Virus record (IMG/VR): IMGVR_UViG_3300030329_001764
Location: 1 to 31,255 of that record
DNA length: 31,255 nucleotides
Reading direction: 5' to 3' (one strand)
Source of the DNA: a virus
The notes under the pieces were generated by a model that was not told the origin of the DNA, did not search any database, and worked only from the letters and a program-made list of their open reading frames with translations. Below, one piece after another: positions 53-3,023 of the stretch (position 1 is its first letter; each line of letters begins with the position of its first letter). A program made the translations under genes and the position numbers.

Positions 53-92
53 TTACTCCAAGAGATGTCGGGTTTTACCCGACATTTTTTTT
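53..92 (+). terminator. Intrinsic terminator preceded by the TTACTCCAAGAGA motif
   Basis: An 8-bp perfect stem, TGTCGGGT (66-73) with ACCCGACA (77-84), has a 3-base loop and is followed by eight T's (85-92). The 13 bases just before it (53-65) recur exactly before the terminator at 1001-1027, so the motif and terminator appear to travel as a unit. Confidence 0.85.
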
Positions 93-95
93 AAC

Positions 96-150
96 TCGGG
101 TTTCGGGTTTCGGGAGCTATTCGGGTTTCGGGAGCTATTCGGGTTTCGGG
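96..150 (+). repeat. G-rich TCGGGTT tandem repeats
   Basis: The block opens with TCGGGTT-type units, then has an 18-bp unit TCGGGTTTCGGGAGCTAT in tandem (103-120 and 121-138) and a third, partial copy from 139. It contains at least four GGG tracts with 4-8 base loops, so a G-quadruplex is possible on the + strand. A related block follows the next terminator at 1031-1078. Such G tracts are foreign to the AT-rich surroundings. Candidate roles are protein binding, an origin or packaging site, or recombination; none is shown. Confidence 0.75.
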
Positions 151-164
151 GTATATAAAACAAT

Positions 165-180
165 CACTACATATAATATA
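165..180 (+). promoter_or_regulatory. Possible promoter -10 region
   Basis: A TATAAT hexamer (172-177) lies in the 293-base gap before the first complete gene, just after the terminator and G-rich repeat. No good -35 box stands 17 bases upstream, so this is only a candidate. After the second repeat block a similar AT-rich ACATAATATAC stretch occupies the same relative place. Confidence 0.3.
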
Positions 181-337
181 ATAAAAAACCTAACAAACTA
201 TTAACAAGACCTTGCACCTGGAACCAGGACGACAAAACTTTCGTGCAGCACGAGGCATAATAATTTCAAAATATATTTGTAATACCTGTAAATTTTGGTA
301 TACTACATATGACAATAACAACATGGAGTATAAGACA

Positions 338-841
338 ATGCATAGAACTTTATTAGGTCATGTAAATGTAGATAGTGGTCAGTTAATGGTGACTGATCCT
401 TGTTACTTAAGTAACTTTCATAACAATGATTTTAATCCTAAAACAAAATATATGAATGTTAGGGACAATAAAAAAATTGTTGTTCATCCCGATGATTTTT
501 TTAATTATGAGGAGGACATGATTGAAGGTTATAATAAGAATATGAATACCCTAATTAAAGAGGGTCTATTTGTTAAACTTGAAGATGAAGAACTTGCCGA
601 TACAAGTTACTCATATAATGGTTCATGTTCAGTAACTTGTTATTCACTAAATCAAGGGGGTGAACTCGGAAACGGACGAGGGGTTTCTTTTTCTAGTGGA
701 TTCGGTGATGGATCTTATCCCGTATATGCTTACTATGAAAAGGTCGATGGATGGGGTACGAGGATCAAAAAAGTTGAAATTGAATTCTTTACCGATGAAG
801 CATTAGAATTTGCAAAAAACAATGAGGACGATGATGAGTAA
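338..841 (+). CDS. DUF4241-like conserved phage protein
   Basis: A 167-residue soluble protein. An N-terminal DSGQLMVTDPCYL segment (about residues 12-24) and a C-terminal FGDGSYPVYAYYE stretch are the two conserved blocks I associate with DUF4241-type proteins; their biochemical role is unknown. I chose ATG 338 because GGAG stands nine bases upstream in the leader catGGAGTataagacaATG, which closely matches the leader of the gene at 1281. ATG 323 and a TTG at 212 are in frame but lack a ribosome site. It overlaps the next tiny gene by 8-11 bases. No signal peptide or membrane segment is seen. Confidence 0.75.
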   Translation: MHRTLLGHVNVDSGQLMVTDPCYLSNFHNNDFNPKTKYMNVRDNKKIVVHPDDFFNYEEDMIEGYNKNMNTLIKEGLFVKLEDEELADTSYSYNGSCSVTCYSLNQGGELGNGRGVSFSSGFGDGSYPVYAYYEKVDGWGTRIKKVEIEFFTDEALEFAKNNEDDDE

Positions 842-977
842 AATGGATTCAAGAACAATTGAAAATATTTTAAATGAAATGTTAACCAGTTTAACAGAAT
901 TCAAATGCGAAGATGTTAAATTTTTTGAGAAAAAAATTTTTGAAATTATGGTCTATATTAAGACGCTTGAAAAATAA
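834..977 (+). CDS. Small hypothetical protein (47 aa)
   Basis: The ORF reads MSKMDSRTIENILNEMLTSL... and ends in YIKTLEK. It looks largely helical and charged. It begins inside the end of the preceding gene (ATG 831 or 834) with GAGG a few bases upstream, so translation is probably coupled. It ends just before the second terminator unit, which makes it the last gene of a two-gene cassette. Not recognised. Confidence 0.6.
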   Translation: MSKMDSRTIENILNEMLTSLTEFKCEDVKFFEKKIFEIMVYIKTLEK

Positions 978-1000
978 ACTTATATTGGTTACTCCAAGAG

Positions 1001-1027
1001 AAGCCTCCCATTCGGGAGGCTTTTTTT
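1001..1027 (+). terminator. Intrinsic terminator
   Basis: The stem GCCTCCC (1003-1009)/GGGAGGC (1014-1020) has the loop ATTC and a run of seven T's (1021-1027). The same 13-bp motif as at 53-65 directly precedes it. It closes the cassette of the genes at 338 and 834. Confidence 0.9.
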
Positions 1028-1030
1028 GTT

Positions 1031-1078
1031 TCGGGTTCGGGTTCGGGACAATTTGAGTCGGGGTTCGGGGTTCGGGAG
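1031..1078 (+). repeat. Second G-rich TCGGGTT/TCGGGGTT repeat block
   Basis: Three TCGGGT-type units occupy 1031-1047 and three TCGGGGT-type units 1058-1076, separated by an 11-base spacer. The 14-mer TCGGGGTTCGGGGT at 1058-1071 is found again, inverted, at 2451-2464, so related repeats flank the cassette of small genes between them. Confidence 0.75.
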
Positions 1079-1184: not shown

Positions 1185-1214
1185 TTGTCACTTTTTTGTT
1201 TTATTATGTAGTAT
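1185..1214 (+). promoter_or_regulatory. Candidate sigma70-type promoter
   Basis: TTGTCA (1185-1190) is followed after 18 bases by TAGTAT (1209-1214), about 65 bases before the start of the gene at 1281 and after an upstream terminator. The position fits transcription of the 1281-2351 cassette. In such AT-rich sequence, partial matches arise easily by chance. Confidence 0.35.
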
Positions 1215-1280: not shown

Positions 1281-1547
1281 ATGCTTAAAGCAAAAACAAA
1301 AACGACTACTAAAAAATTGTCTTTAACTAAATTAGCCGATTTAGCAGAAGATAGTTTAAATAGAAAATTTCCTATTAATGAAATGTCATATAAAAAACTT
1401 TATAGAATAGGATATGTCTTTTCTAAAATTGCTCTTGATTTAAGACAAACTGCAATTGAACAAGGAATTTGCAAAATCTCAGCAATTAAAGAACAAGAAC
1501 GAAAAGCAACAATTGCAAAAATTAAAACTTATGAATGGAGTAAATAA
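1281..1547 (+). CDS. Hypothetical protein (88 aa)
   Basis: A lysine-rich, probably helical protein with a poly-Lys/Thr N-terminus (KAKTKTTTKK). The start is supported by GGAG eight bases upstream in the leader catGGAGTaagactaATG. It is the first gene of a five-gene cassette of tiny proteins with short gaps or overlaps. No family recognised. Confidence 0.65.
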   Translation: MLKAKTKTTTKKLSLTKLADLAEDSLNRKFPINEMSYKKLYRIGYVFSKIALDLRQTAIEQGICKISAIKEQERKATIAKIKTYEWSK

Positions 1548-2376: not shown

Positions 2377-2405
2377 ATGGCATCCGATCGGATGCCATTT
2401 TTTTT
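2377..2405 (+). terminator. Intrinsic terminator
   Basis: A perfect 9-bp stem ATGGCATCC/GGATGCCAT with a GATC loop (2377-2398) is followed by seven T's. It ends the small-gene cassette. A single TCGGGT, the core of the upstream repeats, directly follows it. Confidence 0.9.
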
Positions 2406-2450
2406 CGGGTAACTTTGGCAATTACATTATATTTATTTTATTTTATTTTG

Positions 2451-2482
2451 ACCCCGAACCCCGATTTGGGGCGGGGTTTTTT
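2451..2482 (+). terminator. Second hairpin-terminator made from an inverted G-rich repeat
   Basis: ACCCCG (2451-2456) pairs with CGGGGT (2472-2477), and CCCC (2459-2462) with GGGG (2468-2471), with a two-base bulge, a GATTT loop and a T run (2477-2482). Its left arm is the reverse complement of TCGGGGTTCGGGGT at 1058-1071, so the repeat element has become, or arose from, a terminator. Confidence 0.75.
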
Positions 2483-2600
2483 ATAGAGATACACATAAAA
2501 TGCTAGTCTGATAAATTCATTTGGAGGTATTTTCATTGGGTTGCCCCCACCCCCTTTTTCTGATACTTTTAGTTAGTTGGAGTCCCAGAGGCAAAAATTT

Positions 2601-3023
2601 ATGTACGATCTAAATCATTCTGGTTTTCATTTGCTTGGCGAAGTCATGGAGATGGCATCCAGATTCCCATTTTACAATAAACGTCCGATATCTGATTTAC
2701 GTAGAATTTTTTTACCACCTATCATGCATGGCAAAATAAGACTGTATCGTAAACAACAGGTGCTTGTAGGTTTTGCTACTTGGACTTTTTTGAGTGATGA
2801 AGAAGCAAAAGACCCTCACATTCATTATAAAATGTTCGAAAGACAAAATGGAGATCAAGTTTGGGTTGTTGACATGTGCTCCCAAAATAATGTACTTTAT
2901 ATTGCAAGAGACATGAGAACATTTTTAACAGAGAACATTATGAAATACACTGGTCATAAAAGAGCTTATTGGAATAGACCTCATAAAAAAAGCAACGCAG
3001 GAAGGATTGATCATGGGCAGTAA
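2601..3023 (+). CDS. HlyC-like toxin-activating lysine acyltransferase family protein
   Basis: A 140-aa protein resembling the RTX-toxin acyltransferases (HlyC/ApxC), which move a fatty acyl group from acyl carrier protein to lysines of a protoxin. By eye, residues 19-66 follow the family block SPLHRxWP...LP.I....Y.L......A..SWA.LS, and VWVVDM (88-92) matches HlyC WFIDW, placing D91 at the catalytic Asp. The usual catalytic His (HlyC His23) lines up with Tyr25. It is shorter than HlyC (170 aa). No RTX toxin lies nearby; the substrate could be a phage or host protein. I chose ATG 2601 (AGAGG nine bases upstream) over TTG 2577. Confidence 0.7.
   Translation: MYDLNHSGFHLLGEVMEMASRFPFYNKRPISDLRRIFLPPIMHGKIRLYRKQQVLVGFATWTFLSDEEAKDPHIHYKMFERQNGDQVWVVDMCSQNNVLYIARDMRTFLTENIMKYTGHKRAYWNRPHKKSNAGRIDHGQ

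Follow-up and report, generated by a model that had tools for sequence, protein, structure and literature searches.

Two copies of a 13-nucleotide sequence, TTACTCCAAGAGA, open two similarly built units near the beginning of a viral DNA of 31,255 bases (the whole of this stretch is called the window), and the question is what function is served by such units and why their parts stay together. The 13-mer occurs at positions 53-65 and 989-1001 and at no other site of the 31,255-base virus record with up to one mismatch. Both copies run directly into a perfect hairpin, then a T-run (7-8 T after each stem) and then an array of TCGGG motifs. This confirms the original prediction of an exact motif shared by two units with the same order of parts and different hairpins. 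The G-rich TCGGG repeats that it named are also present in both units, but they form irregular clusters with spacers of 1-12 nt rather than a fixed tandem unit. The exact pair of 13-mers alone is not significant, because repeated 13-mers are common in this sequence, with 106 different ones occurring at least twice versus 14-32 in first-order simulations; for the same reason, the weight rests on the shared order of parts and on the relatives. Both copies abut a terminator and an array, and the same arrangement recurs in related phages, which is not chance. A third terminator, at 2376-2399, has no 13-mer and just one TCGGG after it. The search of Rfam gave no match in the window.

Table 1. Positions of the features of the two units, their cassettes and the downstream region in the window.
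Feature	Position	Strand	Description
Unit 1 anti-RBS element TTACTCCA	53..60	+	3′ end of upstream cassette; predicted role
Unit 1 intrinsic terminator (predicted)	60..92	+	purine tract AAGAGA, stem TGTCGGGT/ACCCGACA (66-84), U-run 85-92
Unit 1 TCGGG array	96..151 (start approximate)	+	7 copies; recombinant junction
Predicted cassette-2 promoter	277..304	+	TTGTAA-16-TATACT, TG before second hexamer; consensus match only
RBS TGGAGTA of cassette-2 gene	324..330	+	
Cassette-2 gene, DUF4241-like	338..841	+	PF14025, PHROG 5209
Cassette-2 small ORF, 44 aa	843..977	+	no relatives in compared set
Unit 2 anti-RBS element TTACTCCA	989..996	+	3′ end of cassette 2; predicted role
Unit 2 intrinsic terminator (predicted)	996..1027	+	purine tract AAGAGA, stem AGCCTCCC/GGGAGGCT (1002-1021), U-run 1021-1027
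Unit 2 TCGGG array	1031..1076 (start approximate)	+	corresponds to array 3 position of relatives
Predicted promoter before gene at 1281	1185..1214	+	TTGTCA-18-TAGTAT; consensus match only
RBS TGGAGTAA	1268..1275	+	exact complement of TTACTCCA
First gene after module (C3)	1281..1547	+	no Pfam or PHROG match
Counterpart of conserved non-coding element near presumed genome end of relatives	2404..2560	+	GGGTAACTTTGG ... ATTCATTTGGAGGTATTTTCATTGGGTTGCCCCCACCCCC

The prediction that the units carry an intrinsic (Rho-independent) terminator is well supported. In both units and in all complete units of the relatives, a U-run comes immediately after the G+C-rich hairpin. Unrelated stems, at least five of them, occupy the same place, with folding energies from -17.5 to -25.4 kcal/mol (about -18 kcal/mol in unit 1), and the stem types, which include TGTCGGG, TGGCGGG, AGCCTCCC, ATGCCTCC and AGGCACC, are all perfectly paired. 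The folding of twelve terminator units divides the 13-mer into two parts. The purines after TTACTCC pair with the U-run below the hairpin, so that 5-6 nt of the 13-mer (AAGAGA and its variants) are the purine tract of the terminator, and TTACTCC itself is unpaired or weakly paired in the isolated terminator. Since the purines pair with the U-run and the stems vary, TTACTCCA is taken as the conserved element and the remainder as terminator. The forms TTACTCCAAGAGA, TTACTCCAAGGAA, TTACTCCAGGA and TTACTCCAGTGAA of the 13-mer are found in relatives.

The large terminase of the window is 61% identical to that of Pelagibacter phage HTVC027P and similar to that of HTVC023P; because of this similarity, this uncultured phage is placed near the cultured SAR11 phages of the HTVC023P/HTVC027P terminase lineage. 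A search of the phage collection found no near-identical named phage. The gene that follows the module led to only one further locus, so relatives were gathered with the nuclease gene and the DUF4241 gene; many matches to the motif pattern were judged chance and discarded on context. About a dozen contigs of related phages also have the module, in each case where a small-gene cassette ends on its 3′ side; hairpins and genes differ between them, and within IMG/VR the module is confined to this subclade. The motif does recur next to terminators in related phages, which is what the original prediction asked to be checked. The gene order in relatives is terS, a nuclease, a minus-strand gene, array 2, a slot, the TTACTCC-terminator-array 3 module and conserved genes up to terL. 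The nuclease is PD-(D/E)xK-like (PHROG 2165 and resolvase-like matches). One of the genes upstream of terL, conserved in the whole group, has an HlyC-like acyltransferase domain (PF02794; window 2601-3023). The more distant phages L231 and L232 (terL 60% identical in L232) have TTCGGG arrays directly after terS, and a terminator followed by an array, but no TTACTCC. The GC skew of G001 tracks gene direction only and gave no help.

Relatives differ in what lies in the slot that separates array 2 from the next conserved gene: a DUF4241-like gene together with others, different small genes, or none. Occupied slots end in the TTACTCC element in 12/12 contigs, some of which are close kin (e.g., L139 and L192), so that there are fewer independent cases. 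The terminator and array are seen in ten of them, and the other two (L146 and L147) stop 16 nt after TTACTCC. All three empty slots (L044, L142, L148) are without the TTACTCC module. The window begins inside the last gene of one cassette, of the C16 type, whose stop codon lies at about 42-44, and continues with unit 1, the DUF4241-like gene, the small ORF and unit 2. It therefore contains two cassettes in tandem, and relatives carry none or one. These comparisons of sequence give good support to the view that the module marks where a cassette slot ends on its 3′ side, the slot being empty, variably filled or doubled.

The mode of cassette exchange can be read from the left and right flanks of every array, which were compared with each other. 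Arrays 2 and 3 of most relatives have no flank similarity between them. The left flank of unit 1 in the window is of the array-3 type (87/92 identical to G001) and its right flank of the array-2 type (248/260 identical to L139). The reciprocal arrangement is found in L142, with a left flank of the array-2 type (113/118) and a right flank of the array-3 type (83/95). All four flank combinations thus exist: A2L-A2R and A3L-A3R in most relatives, A3L-A2R in window unit 1 and A2L-A3R in L142. Because the array is the only sequence common to both places, the joints are placed inside it, and recombination of left and right flanks within the TCGGG array is well supported by the aligned sequences. The idea of a recombination boundary at which cassettes are swapped, one of those originally proposed, stands on these combinations and on the empty, varied and doubled slots. 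The arrays are not the sole site of joining, since the joint of L044 lies in the leader and a hairpin was swapped in L040, and they could be passive homology. The same comparison refutes unit 2 as a drifted local copy of unit 1 with some chance resemblance. The exact 13-mer and the part order common to both units are what a local duplication would leave, but the left flanks and the hairpins are unrelated, the right flanks have their matches (up to 95%) at loci of relatives that are not the same for the two units, and the same module stands in other contigs with other genes. Such an origin is hardly credible, and the simple local duplication without recurrence, named at the outset as the finding that would count against the module, did not appear.

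The invariance of TTACTCCA is predicted to reflect a role as an anti-ribosome-binding-site element. The first genes of the units have the ribosome-binding site (RBS) ATGGAGTAA or one near to it, and TTACTCCA is its complement. In the proposed mechanism, each unit would be the closing end of a small, independently transcribed cassette, followed by a member of the TCGGG motif array. When the polymerase reads through the terminator, the run-on RNA would contain TTACTCCA, which would pair with the TGGAGTAA RBS of the next cassette. Only RNA begun at the cassette's own promoter, downstream of TTACTCCA, would then be translated well, and the lock would act only on RNA entering from upstream. The terminator and the lock together would insulate cassettes whatever their neighbours, an arrangement suited to reshuffled parts, and the array would supply the shared sequence at which cassettes recombine, probably as a by-product of another, older function. 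Such a lock fits the absence of the element from empty slots, where no transcription would enter the array from upstream.

For the pairing, run-on RNA of about 280-340 nt was modelled, beginning with TTACTCCA and ending at the next start codon. Between 4.7 and 7.6 of the 8 pairs are expected to form in 11/11 units, which share descent and so do not count as 11 independent events, and 0/40 shuffled 8-mers reached the observed pairing in any of the 11. Among the 87 called genes of G001, TGGAGTA belongs to the top-ranked start regions only at four genes flanking arrays 2 and 3. No covariation is visible, because TTACTCCA and TGGAGTAA are both invariant, and any sequence containing CTCC pairs with GGAG ribosome-binding sites. 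The promoters on which the lock would depend are matches to a consensus, which in the window are overall not above shuffled expectation; the promoter-like sequence of cassette 2 is conserved in the leaders of relatives. The leaders of genes after arrays 2 and 3 have a common motif, TACTACATA-GACAA, before the RBS ATGGAGTA, and the same motif precedes the divergent minus-strand gene.

The RBS of the element's own cassette is a predicted partner as well (6.2 of 8), and pairing there would give feedback and not insulation. This agrees with an alternative in which TTACTCCA is a feedback element or the seed of a 3′-UTR-derived small RNA that pairs with TGGAGTA sites of its own or other cassettes. 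The layout of unpaired seed, purine tract, hairpin and U-tail is the classic one for such an RNA, and there would be targets at several start sites. The complementarity, however, covers 8 nt only and does not extend, and insulation agrees equally well with the element being absent wherever there is no gene upstream; this alternative is considered unlikely. A binding site for a protein or for a processing or termination factor, close to what was first suggested for the 13-mer, appears less probable still. TTACTCCA is indeed invariant while the following bases and hairpins vary, many relatives have a similar GGTTACT motif ahead of hairpins at their presumed genome end, and L107 has GTTACTCCGAGAGA before a terminator at position 319. 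Nevertheless, the complementarity to the next RBS accounts for the conserved bases and half of the 13-mer is the purine tract of the terminator, neither of which needs a protein, and nothing in support of such a protein or antitermination factor, including a candidate for it, was found. TTACTCCA may also be thought of as the RBS of a minus-strand gene. This is plausible only at array 2, where a minus-strand gene starts, and unlikely in general, as inspection of G001 by eye gave no minus-strand ORF longer than about 18 codons at the modules. Taken as a whole, the preferred reading, in which a terminator, an anti-RBS lock and a recombining array close swappable cassettes in the SAR11-phage terminase lineage, is given a slightly better than even chance.

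The TCGGG array is older than the cassette module and separate from it. Arrays are present in the records of 21/30 relatives, always on the strand of terL, and a reversed control pattern gave none. Going from the terS/nuclease genes towards terL, there are about three such clusters; they occupy the interval from terS or the nuclease to a conserved non-coding element located some 2 kb upstream of terL. One array lies inside the nuclease gene and is kept by codons rare elsewhere: Ser TCG in 46/46, Arg CGG in 15/15 and Gly GGG in 46/75 cases, versus 4%, 0.9% and 4%. Sister phages without TCGGG have a different, likewise asymmetric hexamer at the same place, CCTGCG (L072, L078, L098, L115, L054) or ACCAGG (L092), and more distant phages have GTCGGG, TCGCTT or TCATCA arrays. 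An RNA G-quadruplex was rejected as a family-wide feature, as the TCGGG arrays fit the motif and the CCTGCG and ACCAGG arrays of the sisters do not. Strand-asymmetric arrays of short motifs after terS and the nuclease gene are also seen in L150-L158, L163-L186, HTVC027P and 023Pt_psg01, and weaker motifs among relatives are GGCTTGA and GCTCGC. In the control comparison, 17/19 such regions reached the score that was reached by 7/68 other stretches, and those seven resemble repeats of glycine-rich genes.

The distribution of motifs hints at recognition of the arrays by TerS or the nuclease. Pairs of phages with 98% identical TerL differ in motif, and their TerS are 77% and 74% identical; in pairs with the same motif, TerS is closer (85% and 88%). 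The changes of motif type required on midpoint-rooted trees of 19 loci are 4 for TerS, 5 for TerL and 6 for the nuclease, which is a small difference. In L048, terS has moved next to terL and the array stayed at the nuclease gene. This weakens the idea that the array depends on the small terminase alone, and together with the weak tree contrast it counts against certainty. It is quite possible, though below an even chance, that the arrays are recognition sites for packaging by the small terminase or for DNA-end processing and recombination (Chi-like), with cassette shuffling a mere consequence. Their place between terS/nuclease and the presumed genome-end element, their restriction to one strand, the rare codons of the nuclease gene and the different motifs of sisters with diverged TerS would fit such sites; three clusters over 3 kb are wide for pac or cos, and L048 and the small tree contrast again stand against it. 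In a broader and more tentative proposal, the strand-locked array between terS/nuclease and the genome end, whose motif would switch between close sisters along with TerS and the nuclease (TTCGGG, GTCGGG, CCTGCG, ACCAGG, TCGCTT and others), may serve in packaging or recombination as a code of self-recognition that changes fast, and insulated cassettes would be swapped on it. The wider, testable question raised by the arrays is why the short-motif arrays next to the small terminase differ between close relatives whose large terminase is the same.

The conserved non-coding element before terL consists of GGGGTTACTTGG, in many relatives followed by CCCACCCTCCCGCCC, and then ATTCATTnnnnnTTTTCATTGG. 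CCCACCCTCCCGCCC is a tight G4 motif on the opposite strand. Contigs L050, L090 (55 kb) and L097 begin at CCCACCC, which suggests a genome end or an assembly break. The sequence at position 319 of L107, one mismatch away from the 13-mer, stands where relatives have GGGGTTACTTGG.

Several known systems share single properties with this locus. The pac sites recognised by the small terminase in SPP1 (PMC6316719) are likewise lineage-specific sequences near terS; unlike pac, the three arrays extend over about 3 kb, with some inside the nuclease gene, and they are candidate sites only. The Start Associated Sequences (SAS) and stoperators of mycobacteriophages are 13-bp motifs (PMC3203893, PMC3029335) and, like the present motif, short, asymmetric and oriented repeats at gene boundaries. 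SAS are located at gene starts and include the Shine-Dalgarno sequence (SD) itself, and stoperators bind repressor, whereas the window motif stands at cassette ends and is complementary to the SD. With two copies in the window, found at cassette ends only, it is neither a stoperator nor an SAS.

The closest parallel to the predicted lock is the sequestration of ribosome-binding sites in phage T4. In genes e, soc and I-TevI, RNA started upstream hides the RBS, and RNA from the gene's own promoter is without the hiding segment. The cassettes would resemble this, as RNA from their own promoters is without the pairing segment. The T4 structure is a local hairpin, whereas here about 260-300 nt, including a terminator, separate the two partners, and the function is a prediction. 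Modular shuffling is known from the promoter-early-stem-loop (PeSL) cassettes of T4-type phages (Arbiol 2010, Comeau 2014, as cited in PMC4503421), which, as far as described there, also place a terminator hairpin and a promoter between small genes. Recombination between copies to shuffle modules is seen here in the four flank combinations. A T4-type early promoter flanked by stem-loops is not; each unit has one terminator, an array and a different promoter-like site, and no T4-type genes were seen in the window. Unlike PeSL, as represented in that account, the phage is unrelated, the joints lie inside the TCGGG array and not in stem-loops, and there is an additional, predicted anti-RBS element.

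In the part of the pelagiphage genome and transcriptome literature that was searched, such boundaries are not mentioned, and their novelty is provisional. The cassettes themselves are best compared with morons, extra gene units inserted in phage genomes, such as the "ant moron" of P22-like phages (PMC2629481) or those of SPP1 (PMC6316719). Like morons, they are sets of small non-core genes that occupy a fixed slot, vary or are missing among relatives, and have promoter-like and terminator signals of their own. In related genomes, one and the same place has the unit, lacks it or has another instead. The terminator of the unit is present; the promoter is a consensus match of a kind not above shuffled expectation overall. 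Unlike morons, these cassettes end in a conserved, predicted anti-RBS element and are bounded by motif arrays used as joints; to our knowledge, a shared boundary of this kind is not a feature of usual morons. If real, the lock would explain how cassettes are reordered without disturbing their neighbours, and abundant ocean phages would have a boundary design for gene swapping made of a terminator, a predicted lock matched to a shared RBS and a joint array. The object is thus a moron-like cassette with a terminator, of an ordinary kind, and it is the boundary that is unusual.
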